A stretch of 19,550 bases of DNA from positions 1-19,550 of the forward strand of contig JAMCZX010000010.1 of assembly GCA_023485205.1 (NCBI GenBank). The letters are read 5' to 3'. The notes beneath the pieces were generated by a model, which worked only from the letters and a program-made list of their open reading frames with translations, had not been told where the DNA came from and ran no database searches. Source of the stretch: Candidatus Omnitrophota bacterium. Lineage in GTDB: Bacteria > Ratteibacteria > UBA8468 > B48-G9 > DTJG01. Of this stretch, positions 9,005 through 19,550 are shown one piece after another. Every line of letters starts with the position of its first letter. Within the stretch, counting starts at the first letter, position 1. The position numbers and the translations under genes were made by a program.

Positions 9005-10322
9005 TATTTTTTATTTCCTGAAGCTTTTCAATATCTTTCCCTTCAAAGAAAATTCTTATAATTGGTTCTGTTTTAGAAACCCTTAACTGGAACCAGAACT
9101 CAGGAAAAGAAATTTTTAATCCATCCTCCTCTGAAATCTTTCCTTCTTTGAATTTATTTTTAACCTTTGAAAAAAACTTTTCTATTTTTTCAGGGGTAAT
9201 CTGTATTTTTTCTTTTATGAAATGGTAAACAGGAAATTTATTTATACTTTCAGAAAGAGTACTATTATTAATGCTTAAACATTCTAAAGCAAGCCCAATT
9301 CCTATAAAACTATCCCTGCCATAATGAAAATCCGAGTAAATGATACCGCCATTTCCTTCTCCCCCACAGACAGCTTTAACTTTTTTCATTTTAGAGGATA
9401 CATACATCTCCCCTACTTTTGTTCTATAAAGAGGCACATCCATTTTTTTACAAATGTCATCTACAAGCATTGTTGTAGAAAGATTAACAACAACAGGCCC
9501 CTTTTTTCTGGTGGATAAGATATGTTGTATAAGAAAAGAAACCCCATATTCTTCACTGATAATATTACCCTTTTCATCTACAAGGACAAGTCTATCACAA
9601 TCCGGGTCCTGAGCAAACCCTATGTCTGCTTTTTCTTCAACAACTTTTTTGGCTAATTCTTTAAGATTATCTCTGGTTGGTTCAGGATTCCTTGAAAAAA
9701 TACCTATAGGTGCCTCATTTATTGCTATTACATCACAACCAAGCTTTTTAAGAAAATCTTTTGTCCAGACTGCTCCAACACCCTGGCATGGGTCTATAAC
9801 AACCCTGAATTTTTTCTTTTTTATGGCAGCGACATCTATAAAATTTAAAATCTTAGCAAAATAGGTATGAATTTCTTTTTCCGAATGTATAAAAAGTCCA
9901 GGGGTAGAGACATGTTTTTTTTTATTTTTTTTATAGATTTTTATAAATTCTCTAAATTCTTCTTCATTTAGAAATGTACCAGAAGAAGAAAAAAATTTAA
10001 TTCCATTATATGGCTGAGGATTGTGGCTGGCTGTTATAATTACCCCATTTAATTTACAATTTTTTTCTATAATAAAACCTATAGCAGGGGTTGGAACAAT
10101 TCCTATATCAATAATATTCTTACCTGAAGATAAAACCCCTGCAGAAAAGGAAATTTTTAAAGAATCTCTGCTGGGCCTTGTATCTGTGCCAATAATAATA
10201 TTTTTTTCATGACACCATTGCCCAAATGCCATTCCAAAATCAAAAGCATTTTTTTCACAAAGAGTTTTTCCATATATACCACGGATTCCAGAAGTACTGA
10301 TTATTAAATTTTTATCTATCAT
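8982..10322 (-). CDS. glmM: Phosphoglucosamine mutase / phosphohexomutase
   Basis: Alpha-D-phosphohexomutase superfamily enzyme, most likely interconverting glucosamine 6-phosphate and glucosamine 1-phosphate on the way to UDP-GlcNAc. The 446 residues show all four domain signatures: TSGIRG (10-15); TASHNPQPYNGIKF (97-110), with phosphoserine Ser99; DPDCDR (239-244), the Mg-binding loop; GGEGNGGI (320-327), the sugar-binding loop; and RVSKTEPIIR (414-423), the phosphate-binding loop. The sugar loop, GGEGNGG rather than GEESGH/GEQSGH, resembles archaeal-type GlmM/phosphomannomutases, so sugar specificity is not settled. The ATG overlaps the truB stop (ATGA), making it the last gene of the rplU operon. 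Its 3' end overlaps nfeD on the other strand. Confidence 0.87.
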   Translation of the reverse strand: MIDKNLIISTSGIRGIYGKTLCEKNAFDFGMAFGQWCHEKNIIIGTDTRPSRDSLKISFSAGVLSSGKNIIDIGIVPTPAIGFIIEKNCKLNGVIITASHNPQPYNGIKFFSSSGTFLNEEEFREFIKIYKKNKKKHVSTPGLFIHSEKEIHTYFAKILNFIDVAAIKKKKFRVVIDPCQGVGAVWTKDFLKKLGCDVIAINEAPIGIFSRNPEPTRDNLKELAKKVVEEKADIGFAQDPDCDRLVLVDEKGNIISEEYGVSFLIQHILSTRKKGPVVVNLSTTMLVDDICKKMDVPLYRTKVGEMYVSSKMKKVKAVCGGEGNGGIIYSDFHYGRDSFIGIGLALECLSINNSTLSESINKFPVYHFIKEKIQITPEKIEKFFSKVKNKFKEGKISEEDGLKISFPEFWFQLRVSKTEPIIRIFFEGKDIEKLQEIKNTIYHLLK

Positions 10323-14703: not shown

Positions 14704-15546
14704 TCAGGCCCACTCTTCGGAAAGAATTTCCCCTTTAATACTTACAACAATCTGTTTTAATGGAATCTTTCTTTTGACAGATGATGTTGCTTGCTGTGCT
14801 AATCTTAAAAGTCCCATACAACATGGAACTTCCATTATTACCACAGTCAATGTATTTATATGAGCCTGTTCCACCAAATCTTTTATTTTTTCTACATACT
14901 CTTCTAAACCTTCATCCAACTTTGGACAGGCAACAGCAATGGATTTTCCTTTTAAAAAATTCTCATGAAAATCCCCAACAGCATAAGCAACACAATCTGC
15001 GCAAAGAAGAACATCTGCATTTTTAAAATAGGAAGCAGATGGAGAAACCAAATGAAGTTGTACTGGCCACTGTCTAAGTTGAGATATTCTTTTTCCGGTT
15101 TCCTCAACCTGTTCTTTTTGATTTTCTCTCATATCTACCATTTGTGCCCCCGGGCAACCAGATGGGTGCATACCTTTATGCATCATTTTTTTATTTATTG
15201 GTATTTCCATGTTTTTCTCCTTTAAAAATGAAATAGCCTGATTAAATAGTTCTTTTTCGTTATGGGCAAGAAGATGTTCAAGATGCGCTTTTATAACATT
15301 TTTCCCCTGTTTTATGATATTACCCATAACTTTCTTTTCATCATAAGCTTCTGACTCTCTTTCTTCAATCGTTATTGCTCCTTGAGGACAATGCCCTATA
15401 CAGGCACCAAGTCCATCACAAAACAGGTCACTGATAAGTCTTACCTTGCCATCAATAATTTGTAAAGCTCCTTCAGGACAGTTAGGTATACATAATCCAC
15501 ATCCATTACACTTTTCATGGTCAATCTTTATAATTTTTCTTTTCAT
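14704..15546 (-). CDS. Fe-S protein with ferredoxin-like N-terminus and cysteine-rich C-terminal domain
   Basis: Cytoplasmic protein of 280 residues. The N-terminal di-cluster ferredoxin fold has CNGCGLCIPNCP (Cys 13, 16, 19, 23; one complete [4Fe-4S] motif) and CDGLGACIGHCP (Cys 43, 49, 53), in which the second Cys of the CxxCxxCxxxC pattern is Leu46; the second cluster could be three-ligand, altered or absent. The C-terminal part (about 120-280) has further cysteines in SGCPG (131), LLCADC (182, 185), VACPKLDE (207) and EVPCCMGL (242-243), suggesting another metal or redox site. Similar proteins occur in anaerobes, from memory sometimes near hybrid-cluster (Hcp) genes, but no Hcp is present here. 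It is third in the rrf2 unit, 14 bases after the HD gene, with AAGGTGG before its ATG. The exact reaction is unknown. Confidence 0.8.
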   Translation of the reverse strand: MKRKIIKIDHEKCNGCGLCIPNCPEGALQIIDGKVRLISDLFCDGLGACIGHCPQGAITIEERESEAYDEKKVMGNIIKQGKNVIKAHLEHLLAHNEKELFNQAISFLKEKNMEIPINKKMMHKGMHPSGCPGAQMVDMRENQKEQVEETGKRISQLRQWPVQLHLVSPSASYFKNADVLLCADCVAYAVGDFHENFLKGKSIAVACPKLDEGLEEYVEKIKDLVEQAHINTLTVVIMEVPCCMGLLRLAQQATSSVKRKIPLKQIVVSIKGEILSEEWA

Positions 15547-15560
15547 CTATTCAACCCACC

Positions 15561-16283
15561 TTATATTTTGTAAATCTTCTTTGCCATCTGTTTTCCTGTT
15601 TCAGTAAGAAAAATCTTATCAATCAATTTTTTTAGTCTATCTTTATCTTTGGTATCTACTTCATCTTTTAGATTAACAAGCCGATCAGCATCATATAACA
15701 CCTTAAAATTATTTGAATCAATTTCTCCGGGACAATGGTGATGAGCAATTATATTACATATTTCCTCAACATCTTCTTTTTTTAATCCATATTTTAAAAG
15801 AATCTTTCTTGCAATTTCAGGACCTTCTTTTTCCTGATAATGTCCATCAGAAGAACCATATTTTTCTTCTGCCACTTTTATTCCTATATCATGCAGAATA
15901 CTTGCAGGTATAACTATCTGCCAATCAGCTTTTTCATTTTTTAATAATTCTTCTGCGAAATTAAGGACATTTTTAGCATGGATTATTCTTTTTGTGTCTC
16001 TGCCAAAATATTCTTCCAATTCCTTTATAAGTTTTTCTTTTATTGTTAATTTTTTATTTTCCATATATGTGTTATATACCTGTTGGCCTACACATTCTTT
16101 ACCGTATTTGCACCATTCAAGACACGATAAATCTATTTCCCTGCGGATAAGACTTTTACAATCTGGACAAATAACTTTTACCTCATCTGTCCATATTTCA
16201 ACCTCTGTTCCACAAGAAGGACATTTTATTTCCTCTGGTTTTGGCTGTCTTAAACCTATCGAACCGGGGCATTTAAAAACCAT
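15561..16283 (-). CDS. HD-domain hydrolase with N-terminal zinc-ribbon/cysteine-rich region
   Basis: A 240-residue cytoplasmic protein in two parts. The N-terminus (about 1-70) is rich in cysteine: Cys5, CPSC (21-24), CPDC (39-42), then Cys54, Cys58 and Cys63 in SCLEWCKYGKECVG. The two CxxC pairs look like a zinc ribbon; the last three plus Cys5 could hold a second metal or Fe-S site. The C-terminus (about 80-235) is an HD domain with His102, LHDIG (130-134, His131-Asp132), HHH (181-183) and Asp198/Asp200, so a metal-dependent phosphohydrolase is expected. The substrate is unknown; nucleotides or signalling nucleotides are both possible. AGAGG lies five bases before the ATG. It sits 12 bases after rrf2 and before the Fe-S protein, which suggests a redox-linked role. 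Confidence 0.82.
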   Translation of the reverse strand: MVFKCPGSIGLRQPKPEEIKCPSCGTEVEIWTDEVKVICPDCKSLIRREIDLSCLEWCKYGKECVGQQVYNTYMENKKLTIKEKLIKELEEYFGRDTKRIIHAKNVLNFAEELLKNEKADWQIVIPASILHDIGIKVAEEKYGSSDGHYQEKEGPEIARKILLKYGLKKEDVEEICNIIAHHHCPGEIDSNNFKVLYDADRLVNLKDEVDTKDKDRLKKLIDKIFLTETGKQMAKKIYKI

Positions 16284-16295
16284 AAAAACCTCTTT

Positions 16296-16715
16296 TTATA
16301 TTTTGCTATTTTTTTCCAACAAAGAATGTAAAGAAATAGATTGAAGTTGTGTTTTTATATAATCTTCAATTTTATCTATTCTCTTCTTTAAAGGACAGGT
16401 GTTAATATTAGGACAAATATTCTTTTTAAATATACACTCATTCAATTTTAAAGGGCCCTGAAATACTTCTATCAAGTCAGTTAAAAATATCCTATCAGGA
16501 GAAACAGATAAAGCAAATCCTCCTCCTTTCCCTTTATAAGAATGTAATATCCCTTTTTTATTTAACATTTGCATTATTTTTCTTAAAAAAGGCCGTGGTA
16601 TCTTCAGTTCTTCCACAAGTTTATCAACCGGCATTATTTCTTCCTCATTTATTGCCATAAAACATAAAGCCCTTACTGCATAATCTGTATCCCTGGTAAT
16701 AAGTTTTCCTTTCAT
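16296..16715 (-). CDS. Rrf2-family transcriptional regulator with Fe-S-type cysteines
   Basis: Winged helix-turn-helix repressor of the Rrf2 family (relatives: IscR, NsrR, RsrR). In 139 residues, TRDTDYAVRALCFMA (7-21) and the recognition region KIPRPFLRKIMQML (38-51) are typical, followed by the wing GKGGGFALSVSPDRI (62-76). Cys94, Cys101 and Cys107 match the three-cysteine cluster-binding loop (spacing seven then six), so the protein probably senses Fe-S status, redox or nitric oxide. The ATG at 16713-16715 has only a weak purine-rich site upstream. It heads the HD/Fe-S unit, and its promoter holds a near-perfect palindrome, pointing to autoregulation. The ligand-free state and exact signal cannot be read from the sequence. 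Confidence 0.92.
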   Translation of the reverse strand: MKGKLITRDTDYAVRALCFMAINEEEIMPVDKLVEELKIPRPFLRKIMQMLNKKGILHSYKGKGGGFALSVSPDRIFLTDLIEVFQGPLKLNECIFKKNICPNINTCPLKKRIDKIEDYIKTQLQSISLHSLLEKNSKI

Positions 16716-16741: not shown

Positions 16742-16766
16742 AAAAGATACCATATTAGTATCATTT
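16742..16766. promoter_or_regulatory. Candidate Rrf2 operator (palindrome)
   Basis: On the plus strand AAAAGATAC, seven bases (CATATTA), then GTATCATTT: two nine-base arms matching at eight of nine positions. The palindrome covers the -10 and the entire spacer of the rrf2 promoter, so a bound dimer would block RNA polymerase. Size and dyad symmetry suit an Rrf2 dimer site; assignment to this regulator is inferred from position. Confidence 0.6.
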
Positions 16767-16772
16767 AGTCAA
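16744..16772 (-). promoter_or_regulatory. Promoter of the rrf2-HD-FeS unit
   Basis: Minus strand: -35 TTGACT (16767-16772), a 17-base spacer ending TGG, and -10 TATCTT (16744-16749), giving an extended -10 TGGTATCTT. The predicted start is near 16737, about 20 bases before the rrf2 ATG. It begins 14 bases after the nrdJ stop codon. Confidence 0.6.
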
Positions 16773-16785
16773 TAAAAAATAAAAA

Positions 16786-19050
16786 CTAACAACGGGAAAA
16801 ACCACAATTATAACATTTTGAACAACCTTCTTCATAAGTAAGAATTTCTCCGCAATCAGGACAAATTCCTATAATATTTTTATTTTTAAAATTCTTTAAT
16901 TTATCGCCTAAAGGTAAAAATAAGGTGTTATTATTTTTTTCTGAATTTATATTTTTACTATTTTGAAAATTGTTTATAGTCTCTTCTATTACTTTAGCAA
17001 TAGCATCTGCACAGGAGAAAATTTTTACACCTTTCTGATATGAAGGAGAGGGACAACGGATATTTTTTAATTGTTCAACAATTGATTTTGCATCTACGCC
17101 AGAGCGAAGACATAAAGAAGTAAGTCTGCCAATAGCTTCTAACTGGCTTGCCGCACAACCACCCGCTTTACCCATCTGAATAAATACCTCAAATGGCTGA
17201 CCACTTTTATCGCAATTAACGGTTACATAAAGATTACCACATCCTGTAGTGACTTTTATTGTATTTCCCATAGTTACATCCGGTCTGGGTTTCGGAGTAA
17301 TTTTCCCTTTTGCTGTAAAACCAACAGATTCTTTATTTATATTCAGAACCTGATTTTCTCTGCTTTTATTACGATAAATAGTTACACCCTTACATCTTAA
17401 TTCATAAGCCTGTAAAAATATTTTCTTCACATCTTCTTTACTGGACGTTTCAGGAAGATTAACCGTTTTGGAAACGGCATTATTAACATATTTCTGAAAT
17501 ACTGCCTGCATTTTTATATGCCACTGCGGTTCAATATCATGAGATGTCACAAAAACTTTTTTTACATCCTGCGGGATTTCATCAATATGCTGGATAGAAC
17601 CAATCTCTGCTATTTTTTCCATTAATTGCCTGCTGTAAAAATTTCTTTTTTTTGCCACTTCTTCAAAAATCGGGTCAACCTCTATCAATTTATCATTATC
17701 CATAACATTTCTGAAATATGAAAGAGCAAAAATAGGCTCTATACCAGAAGAACAAGGTCCGGCAATAATACTAATAGTTCCAGTAGGAGCAATAGTGGTT
17801 AGGGTTGAGTTCCTTAACTTTAAACCCTCTTTTTCATAAATACTACCCTTATAGGCAGGAAATACTCCTCTTGATTCTGCAAGAAAGATGGATTTATTTT
17901 GTGCCTCTTTTAAAATAAAACCCATAATTTTTTCTGCTAATTGTAAAGCATCCTGGGAATTATAAGGTATGTTTAATTTAAACAAAAGAGTTGCCCATCC
18001 CATAACACCTAAACCGATTTTTCTGGTCACCTTTGTCATTTTTTCAATCTGAGGAATGGGAAATTTATTCACATCTATAAGATTATCAAGAAAATGAATA
18101 CTATTATGAACAGTTTTTTTAAGTTTCCCCCAGTTAATCTGATATCCATCCTGTATTTTCTCTACCATATTTGATAAATTAATAGACCCTAAATCGCAGC
18201 TTTCATAAGGTAAAAGAGGTTGTTCTCCACAAGGATTTGTTGATTCTATTTCACCAAGATTGGGTGTAGGATTTGCTTTATTTATTTTGTCAATAAATAT
18301 TATTCCGGGTTCTCCATTTTTATGTGCTTGAGAAACTATTAAATCAAAAACCTTATTTGCTTCAAGTGTATCCTTTGCCTGTCCGGAATGTGGGTCTATT
18401 AAATTATATTTTTCTCCATTATTTAGTTTCTCCATAAATTCATCAGTAATGGCTACAGAGATATTAAAATTTGTAAGGACATGAGAATCATCTTTACAGG
18501 TAATAAAATCCAGAATATCAGGATGGTCAACCCTTAAGATTCCCATATTTGCCCCTCTTCGTGTACCTCCCTGCTTTATTGCTTCTGTAGCCGCATCATA
18601 AACCCTCATAAAAGAAACAGGACCTGAAGCTATTCCCTTAGTAGTTTGAACCACTGAATTTTGCGGTCTTAGTTTAGAAAAAGAAAAACCTGTTCCTCCC
18701 CCGGATTTATGGATAATAGCTGTAATTTTAAGAGTTTCAAAAATACCCCCTATAGAATCTTCAACTGGCAAAGTAAAACAGGCACTTAACTGCCCTAATT
18801 CCTTTCCTGCGTTCATTAAACATGGAGAATTTGGCATAAATTCCAGATTATACATCATTTCATAAAAAATCTCTTCTGTATCTTGAACTTCAGAATCTGA
18901 GATACCATAGAATTTATCTCCTGAAGCAATTGCCCTTGCCACTCTAAGAAATAATTGTTCTGGCGTTTCAATAATTTCTCCATTCTCATTCTTGGATAAA
19001 TATCTTTTTTCCAAAACTTTTAAAGCATTTTGAGAAATTTTAATACTCAT
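16786..19050 (-). CDS. nrdJ: Class II (adenosylcobalamin-dependent) ribonucleoside-diphosphate reductase
   Basis: Cytoplasmic enzyme reducing ribonucleotides to deoxyribonucleotides with a B12-derived radical, independent of oxygen. I start at the ATG (19048-19050), giving 754 residues; an in-frame GTG at 19062 falls inside the Shine-Dalgarno itself. Numbering from the ATG: Cys91 in LSACF (substrate-reducing pair), N-P-C-G-E (272-276; thiyl Cys274, Glu276), Cys285 in SCDLGS (probable second member of the pair), the phosphate loop APTGTIS (about 421-427), a TSCPD-type domain about 595-695 (GKAGGCAASQLEAIGRL), and a C-terminal cysteine cluster (730, 733, 743, 746, 749, 754), probably a zinc ribbon plus the redox-active tail. 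No NrdR-like box was found; its promoter instead carries a half-conserved palindrome like that of rrf2. rrf2 follows 70 bases downstream. Confidence 0.95.
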   Translation of the reverse strand: MSIKISQNALKVLEKRYLSKNENGEIIETPEQLFLRVARAIASGDKFYGISDSEVQDTEEIFYEMMYNLEFMPNSPCLMNAGKELGQLSACFTLPVEDSIGGIFETLKITAIIHKSGGGTGFSFSKLRPQNSVVQTTKGIASGPVSFMRVYDAATEAIKQGGTRRGANMGILRVDHPDILDFITCKDDSHVLTNFNISVAITDEFMEKLNNGEKYNLIDPHSGQAKDTLEANKVFDLIVSQAHKNGEPGIIFIDKINKANPTPNLGEIESTNPCGEQPLLPYESCDLGSINLSNMVEKIQDGYQINWGKLKKTVHNSIHFLDNLIDVNKFPIPQIEKMTKVTRKIGLGVMGWATLLFKLNIPYNSQDALQLAEKIMGFILKEAQNKSIFLAESRGVFPAYKGSIYEKEGLKLRNSTLTTIAPTGTISIIAGPCSSGIEPIFALSYFRNVMDNDKLIEVDPIFEEVAKKRNFYSRQLMEKIAEIGSIQHIDEIPQDVKKVFVTSHDIEPQWHIKMQAVFQKYVNNAVSKTVNLPETSSKEDVKKIFLQAYELRCKGVTIYRNKSRENQVLNINKESVGFTAKGKITPKPRPDVTMGNTIKVTTGCGNLYVTVNCDKSGQPFEVFIQMGKAGGCAASQLEAIGRLTSLCLRSGVDAKSIVEQLKNIRCPSPSYQKGVKIFSCADAIAKVIEETINNFQNSKNINSEKNNNTLFLPLGDKLKNFKNKNIIGICPDCGEILTYEEGCSKCYNCGFSRC

Positions 19051-19055
19051 TTTTT

Positions 19056-19060
19056 CCCTC
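19056..19060 (-). promoter_or_regulatory. Ribosome-binding site of nrdJ
   Basis: GAGGG on the minus strand, five A bases before the ATG at 19050. The upstream GTG candidate overlaps this site, which favours the ATG. Confidence 0.75.
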
Positions 19061-19071
19061 ACTTTACTTTT

Positions 19072-19092
19072 GAGACAAACTTAGTATCATTT
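19072..19092. promoter_or_regulatory. Imperfect copy of the rrf2 palindrome at the nrdJ promoter
   Basis: On the plus strand GAGAC, seven bases, GTATCATTT. One arm is identical to the rrf2 operator arm over nine bases, and the minus-strand identity extends to the 12-mer AAATGATACTAA. The other core arm differs at one of five positions, with the same seven-base spacing. It overlaps the -10 and the predicted start. The nine-base arm also occurs once inside glmM (9338-9346), so the arm alone is not decisive. Confidence 0.4.
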
Positions 19093-19117
19093 TATTTCCA
19101 TATTTATTCTTTGTCAA
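19089..19117 (-). promoter_or_regulatory. Promoter of nrdJ
   Basis: Minus strand: a perfect -35 TTGACA (19112-19117), a 17-base spacer and -10 TAAAAT (19089-19094, five of six). The predicted start is near 19082, giving a leader of about 30 bases with GAGGG. The leader is far too short for a cobalamin riboswitch. Confidence 0.7.
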
Positions 19118-19125
19118 AAAAATTG

Positions 19126-19550
19126 TGTAGTTTAAAATATAGAATGTCACTTTTTTAATATGGTAATTCTTCATTCAATAAATTCATTATTATACCAAAT
19201 TCTTATTTTTTTATCCGGATGAATATAAAGTGAAATTTTTCTTCCTACTAAATTTCTTTTATCATTTAATCTATAAATTGTTCCATTATAAGAAAAAGCA
19301 TTTGTTCTATCAACCTTTCTTGTATCTTTAATGCAGAATATATCATCAAGATTTATTTTATCTTGTAATGGTTTAAAAACTGATGGTATTTTTCTTTTTT
19401 CTGGGGTTGTTTTTATTTCTCTATTTATCCAATTTTTGTTATACCAATCTATCCAATTTTGAAAAGCACTATTCAATTGATTCATTCTATTGATTTTCCC
19501 TCTATTTTCTTTAATAAATCTACTATTGATAAATCTAAATATTCTTTCTA
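19126..19550 (-). mobile_element. 3' part of an insertion sequence with DDE/Mu-type transposase
   Basis: The transposase tail plus about 45 non-coding bases. The outer end is guessed at the TGTAG at 19126-19130, because TGT ends and a nearby repeated TGTCAC-like motif (19145-19150) are common in elements with this transposase type. The other end and any target duplication lie outside the window, so the boundary is tentative. The element stops about nine bases before the -35 of nrdJ. Confidence 0.45.
19171..19550 (-). CDS. DDE transposase/integrase, C-terminal part (runs off the right edge)
   Basis: The open frame continues to the window edge without a start, so the coding region extends past 19550; the internal ATG at 19485 is only an in-frame Met. 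Upstream of it the frame reads ERIFRFINSRF..., and then come WIDWYNKNWINRE and TTPEKRK, matching the end of an integrase catalytic core (the FxxWYNxxRxHR...TPxE pattern of IS481-like and related elements). The final segment RKVDRTNAFSYNGTIYRL and GRKISLYIHPDKKIRIWYNN resembles the small beta-barrel that follows the core in Mu-type transposases. The DDE residues lie outside the window. The exact IS family cannot be fixed. It reads in the same direction as nrdJ, so read-through is possible. Confidence 0.8.
   Translation of the reverse strand, partial: ERIFRFINSRFIKENRGKINRMNQLNSAFQNWIDWYNKNWINREIKTTPEKRKIPSVFKPLQDKINLDDIFCIKDTRKVDRTNAFSYNGTIYRLNDKRNLVGRKISLYIHPDKKIRIWYNNEFIE

Follow-up and report, generated by a model that had tools for sequence, protein, structure and literature searches.

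A candidate operator of a predicted NsrR-like Rrf2 repressor at a class II ribonucleotide reductase gene of a Candidatus Omnitrophota bacterium

The stretch of DNA analysed here—19,550 nucleotides, hereafter the window—is part of contig C14 in a Candidatus Omnitrophota genome of 2.0 Mb (86 contigs, 90.8% complete). Along its minus strand, an ISNCY-type transposase fragment is followed by nrdJ, encoding a B12-dependent class II ribonucleotide reductase (16786–19050; NCBIfam NF006417, Pfam), and by rrf2, encoding a predicted NsrR-like Rrf2 repressor (16296–16715; Pfam PF02082, a 13-row alignment, a structural model and a fold search). Next come the genes for an HD-domain/zinc-ribbon protein (15561–16283; Pfam HD) and a 4Fe-4S ferredoxin-like protein (14704–15546; Pfam Fer4), both of them probable members of the rrf2 operon. 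NrdJ scores 1175.9 bits against the NF006417 model of PRK08665-type class II enzymes (cut-off 961), with the ATG at 19050 as the preferred and the GTG at 19062 as a possible start codon.

Among the genomes searched, a single relative, G001 (62% complete; rrf2 locus L046), belongs to the same genus. It retains the nrdJ–rrf2 order as well as the HD gene downstream of rrf2, with one extra gene in between, and the ferredoxin-like gene lies downstream of the same rrf2 in both G001 and a further genome, G033. The extra gene (L046 5623–6330), which gives a sub-threshold match to FmdE, is absent from the window. Upstream of nrdJ the gene content differs: the transposase fragment occupies 19171–19550 of the window, near the contig end, and other genes are found there in G001.

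Both promoters are readable on the minus strand. That of rrf2 combines a -35 element (TTGACT, 16767–16772) with a predicted autoregulatory operator, ATGATACTAATATGGTATCTT (16744–16764), which is kept in relatives and includes the -10 element TATCTT (16744–16749). At nrdJ, a -35 element kept in G001 (TTGACA, 19112–19117) is separated by a 17-base spacer from the -10 element TAAAAT (19089–19094), two bases of which are shared with the left arm of a candidate Rrf2 operator, ATGATACTAAGTTTGTCTCAA (19070–19090). Motif searches and score matrices identified this site, whose left arm is perfect and whose right arm is degenerate.

The original prediction held that the two promoters share one operator core, GATAC-N7-GTATC, and a scan of the window recovered it at rrf2 as GATACCATATTAGTATC (16746–16762, no mismatch) and at nrdJ as GAGACAAACTTAGTATC (19072–19088, one mismatch), together with six further matches of two mismatches each, the maximum allowed. 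The total of eight is unexceptional by itself (shuffle mean 4.4; at least eight in 17 of 200 shuffles). The predicted common 12-mer, AAATGATACTAA, was found in the window solely at 16755 and 19081, on the minus strand. Among 5000 first-order Markov simulations, 22 produced a same-strand word of at least 12 bases common to two promoters of ~70 bases. The accompanying caveat was equally well founded, as the nine-base AAATGATAC occurs in glmM too, near 9338. When the window was scored with a matrix built from 17 operators that included no nrdJ site, the rrf2 (27.2) and nrdJ (16.0) sites ranked first and second, ahead of a third match at 10.7; they were likewise the top two in L046 (25.4 and 17.9; third, 4.3). 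The claim that both sites take the same place over their promoters did not survive: the rrf2 operator takes up the -10 element and the whole -35/-10 spacer, whereas that of nrdJ extends from the end of the -10 element across the likely start site.

To follow the regulator and its site, we searched for Rrf2 in 61 genomes and then, using the 13-row alignment, in 35 genomes of the phylum. The lineage was present in 12 of these 35 (at least 166.9 bits; next match, 98), and all 12 carry the motif in the rrf2 promoter, with a left arm of ATGATAY or CTWRKAC and a core spacing of seven bases. The rrf2 motif was also found in G061, a MAG from groundwater that is catalogued under Nitrospinota, there with the GAGAC arm seen at nrdJ. 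In G061 (L047 1304–6879), translations place sulfite/nitrite-reductase-like and transporter genes in front of Rrf2, and a hemerythrin-domain gene (Pfam) follows it. Directly after the same rrf2, nine relatives encode hcp; in G033, hcp is divergent from rrf2 and has its own operator, and no hcp was found in the 62% complete G001. In the rrf2 promoters of the sister genus (G002, G004, G005, G006 and G007), the -10 element (TAAAAT) falls on the operator core ACTAAAATAGT and the start codon comes right after it, so that the message may be leaderless. The proposal of an Rrf2 operator is thus upheld by footprinting across all 12 rrf2 promoters of the lineage and by recurrence of the motif at other fitting genes, and the motif is very likely a genuine operator.

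Genome-wide, TTGACNAAATGATAC (up to one mismatch) returned three matches, all of them perfect, at rrf2 and on contigs C27 and C21; the reversed-pattern control gave two matches, their mismatch number unstated. The C27 site belongs to the hcp promoter (NCBIfam hydroxylamine reductase/hybrid cluster protein, 804.6 bits; cut-off 367), behind which rubrerythrin is encoded. The C21 site precedes a gene for a DUF2249-DUF438-hemerythrin protein, then a DUF2249 gene, and is perfect in G001 as well, before a 91% identical protein. This hemerythrin-domain protein scores below the RIC/YtfE equivalog cut-off (26.0 versus 204.7 bits). The original prediction invoked Fe-S or redox sensing in general; the target set points more narrowly to nitrosative/oxidative defence.

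With up to two mismatches, ATGATAC-N7-GTATCAT occurs at 15 sites in the source genome, including four promoters with -35 and -10 elements (the hemerythrin gene, rrf2, hcp and nrdJ); eight of the other 11 lie inside open reading frames, two over the start of one, and one, on C54, was read as intergenic. Four promoters in 15 sites correspond to p = 0.002 at a non-coding fraction of 3.85% (from the window's gene list) and to p = 0.056 at 10%. At up to three mismatches, the motif gives 121 matches and its reversed control 103; of the 121, we read the contexts of the 15 sites above and of seven others. Three genomes lacking this Rrf2 (G003, G008 and G009) hold nine, nine and four sites at up to two mismatches, versus three, one and one in the control. 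Counts at three mismatches barely exceed the control and matches turn up without the regulator, so what carries the argument is where the sites lie, which genes neighbour them and how well they are conserved. The anticipated concentration of hits in promoters was seen for one form of the motif and missed for another: joined with the -35 element, three of three matches fell in promoters, whereas the five exact matches to the bare core divided into two promoters and three genes.

Several candidates were set aside. Bare GATAC-N7-GTATC fails as a genome-wide marker, given that three of five exact matches lie in genes and that 55 matches stand against 38 in the control per strand at up to one mismatch. 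In a matrix built from relatives, a gene-internal site on C71 (19.9) outscored the rrf2 promoter (18.9), and hcp reached only 8.6; we take this site and another inside a gene (C28:92822, 14.7) as chance matches despite their high scores. Outside genes, C54:39356 and C1:644 in the source genome and C25:12596 in G001 have a low score or no fitting promoter that we could see. A second Prismane-family gene, on C25, is assigned by NCBIfam to CO dehydrogenase, and its upstream region contains no operator (best score, -0.5).

The regulator itself is a member of the Rrf2 superfamily (104.5 bits; cut-offs of 30 for PF02082 and 73.3 for TIGR00738). D11, R15, C94, C101 and C107 are invariant in all 13 alignment rows, and D11 aligns with Asp8 of Streptomyces coelicolor NsrR (ScNsrR), described as the fourth ligand, besides three cysteines, of a [4Fe-4S] cluster and as salt-bridged to Arg12 (PMC5411485). 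The protein hence has the three cysteines together with the ScNsrR-type Asp8 and Arg12 positions. Where IscR has its cluster ligand His107, numbered as in PMC5411485, this Rrf2 has K110, with histidine in none of the 13 rows. Every named NCBIfam equivalog that matched the protein did so below its cut-off, namely NsrR (58.7 versus 182 bits), IscR (54.0 versus 207.55), the SUF regulator TIGR02944 (68.4 versus 110.65) and RirA (70 versus 193), the last being the best score for a named subfamily. Nor does ATGATAC-N7-GTATCAT match gATGyAT-N5-ATrCATc, the one published NsrR motif compared (PMC1274295). By sequence, the nearest solved relative is T. potens IscR, then NsrR; a model computed from 13 sequences (pLDDT 87.1) retrieved RsrR first in a fold search, with CymR, NsrR and IscR structures also matching. 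We infer that this Rrf2 works like NsrR, yet do not file it as NsrR because both its equivalog score and its DNA motif fail.

A different signal for the same regulon—a cluster reporting iron, Fe-S status or oxygen, as in RirA, IscR and RsrR, and not NO—appears somewhat unlikely to us. It would suit the RirA score and the closeness to T. potens IscR in sequence and to RsrR in fold, as well as the rubrerythrin gene behind hcp, given that D. desulfuricans rubrerythrin is described as unresponsive to added NO (PMC5701242). Speaking for NO are the Asp8/Arg12-type residues in 13 of 13 rows, the lack of histidine at the IscR ligand position in all of them, and the hcp and hemerythrin-type targets, which fit NO defence; the same study of D. 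desulfuricans reports NO induction of an hcp-containing cluster and of a YtfE-like hemerythrin gene (PMC5701242).

For the nrdJ site, we used a matrix of 12 sites from other lineages, none from this genus. It scored the source site at 14.6, equivalent to p = 2e-5 to 3e-4 for a 60-base promoter according to the background used; chance would produce such a value between 0.7 and 11 times in 2 Mb, and the hcp score 4 to 16 times. The G001 site reached 19.4, which nothing in 3 Mb of simulated DNA attained. At nrdJ the two genomes agree base for base over TAAAATGATACTAA (left arm and core), a conserved block that is partly the -10 element itself; their right arms are both degenerate and differ from each other. 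Both sites are kept in the one same-genus relative, as the original prediction required, short of an intact right arm at nrdJ. Five sister-genus genomes, searched with the version of the operator found there at up to three mismatches, gave one site each, always at rrf2–hcp and never at nrdJ (reversed control, five matches over the five genomes). Besides the genus's two genomes, 29 had a NrdJ match; we examined the nrdJ upstream regions of 17 of these and found no operator in any (best score, 5.4). The nrdJ site is the weak, asymmetric fourth of the predicted Rrf2 sites and, since none of the 17 other upstream regions has one, recruitment of nrdJ would be, if real, a trait of this genus.

Rrf2 might instead regulate rrf2, hcp and the hemerythrin gene only, with TAAAATGATACTAA representing the -10/start region of nrdJ and resembling the operator arm by chance or as an old copy. 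The degenerate right arms, the exact bare-core matches inside genes and the operator-free upstream regions of the other nrdJ genes agree with such a promoter feature or relic, which we nevertheless judge to be distinctly unlikely: both nrdJ sites keep high scores under a matrix free of sites from this genus, they rank second in the window and L046, respectively, well ahead of the third match, the likeness reaches past the -10 element into arm, core and spacer, and the nrdJ–rrf2 gene order is kept. That all of these sites are chance palindromes of an AT-rich genome would account for the near-control count at three mismatches and for matches in relatives lacking this Rrf2, but is extremely improbable, contradicted as it is by the footprint in all 12 rrf2 promoters of the lineage and by the joined -35/operator pattern falling, three times out of three, in promoters of related function.

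A regulon that includes nrdJ would bear on a genome with two ribonucleotide reductases. NrdR is encoded on contig C61 beside the class III gene nrdD, and nrdR–nrdD is preceded by a perfect NrdR box (no mismatch to the consensus). The box lies at L163 4657–4670, just upstream of nrdR, with nrdD directly after nrdR, so NrdR probably regulates both its own gene and nrdD. The suggestion that Rrf2 acts in place of NrdR was accordingly too broad; it is the nrdJ promoter alone that goes without a box, the best match having three mismatches in the source genome and four in G001 (0.29 expected per 300 bases at up to three). Conversely, no Rrf2 operator was found at nrdR–nrdD (score 0.6). In G001, the class III nrdD frame (L170, C12, 2324–5956) comprises 1211 codons, versus 806 in the source genome, and its NRDD match falls into separated pieces, which suggests an intein.

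Pfam detected the C-terminal TSCPD domain but no ATP cone in the NrdJ of the window, and the same was true of G001. The sister-genus NrdJ that was tested, from G004, does have an ATP cone. Elsewhere in the class, 12 examined nrdJ genes are 102 to 117 codons longer at the N-terminal end; we read these extensions as ATP cones, one of the 12 having been tested. As the best matches of the window's NrdJ outside the genus are full-length enzymes from beyond the phylum (57%), the gene was likely acquired from elsewhere.

Taken together, we consider it probable that one NsrR-like Rrf2 represses its own operon, hcp–rubrerythrin, the hemerythrin gene and, more weakly, nrdJ, that NO or another oxidant releases all of them, and that NrdJ is a stand-by enzyme. 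In the resting cell, an [Fe-S] Rrf2 dimer bound to ATGATAC-N7-GTATCAT would cover the promoters of the rrf2 operon (rrf2, the HD protein and the ferredoxin), of hcp with rubrerythrin and of the DUF2249-DUF438-hemerythrin gene, and less firmly that of nrdJ, presumably shutting them to RNA polymerase. NO, or another oxidant, would destroy the cluster and make the dimer let go, so that all four promoters are freed. Class III reductases are sensitive to NO. NrdJ, which requires B12 but no Fe-S activase and no glycyl radical, could then supply deoxynucleotides while the NrdR-controlled NrdD is poisoned. What the sequences show directly is the sites, where they lie and how far they are kept, the invariant ligand residues and the separate promoters of the two reductases; for release and for the stand-by role of NrdJ, this scheme draws on knowledge of the protein families.

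The scheme resembles known systems in part. With NsrR, the protein shares the Rrf2 fold, the three cysteines, Asp and Arg of ScNsrR, and hcp and hemerythrin-type targets, and ScNsrR is likewise reported to use a 23-base site (PMC9338935); it differs in missing the equivalog cut-off, in its operator motif and in the ribonucleotide reductase added to the regulon. An Rrf2-family Fe-S regulator on a ribonucleotide reductase promoter has a precedent in E. coli IscR, described as activating class Ib nrdHIEF from a type II site that holds the -35 element (PMC8561392). Here, by contrast, the gene is of class II and has a repressor-type site at its start, and the regulator has no histidine at the IscR ligand position. 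Dnr and Anr belong to the CRP/FNR family. In Pseudomonas aeruginosa they similarly tie a class II reductase to anaerobic/NO regulators, with nrdJ activation reported to proceed via TTGAY-N4-RTCAA boxes (PMC4860495), as opposed to the Rrf2-type site proposed here. NrdR, too, provides transcriptional control of reductases in this genome, with its box at nrdR–nrdD and not at nrdJ. In the open-licence literature we found no paper naming both nrdJ and Rrf2; papers containing 'ribonucleotide reductase' and 'Rrf2' exist.

More broadly, the class II reductase of this genus, with neither an NrdR box nor an allosteric cone, may have left nucleotide control entirely and been enlisted for the response to nitrosative or Fe-S damage under an NsrR-like Rrf2 subfamily, the two reductases being split between a nucleotide sensor, NrdR (class III), and a sensor of cluster damage, Rrf2 (class II)—a proposal that we regard as evenly balanced between right and wrong. 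If the regulon is as proposed, an Rrf2 group outside all named subfamilies, from an uncultured phylum, would gain a target set and an operator, and there would be a clear, testable case of a damage sensor, in place of nucleotide pools, governing DNA-precursor supply. Such an arrangement would also provide a reason for anaerobes to keep a class II reductase beside a class III enzyme.
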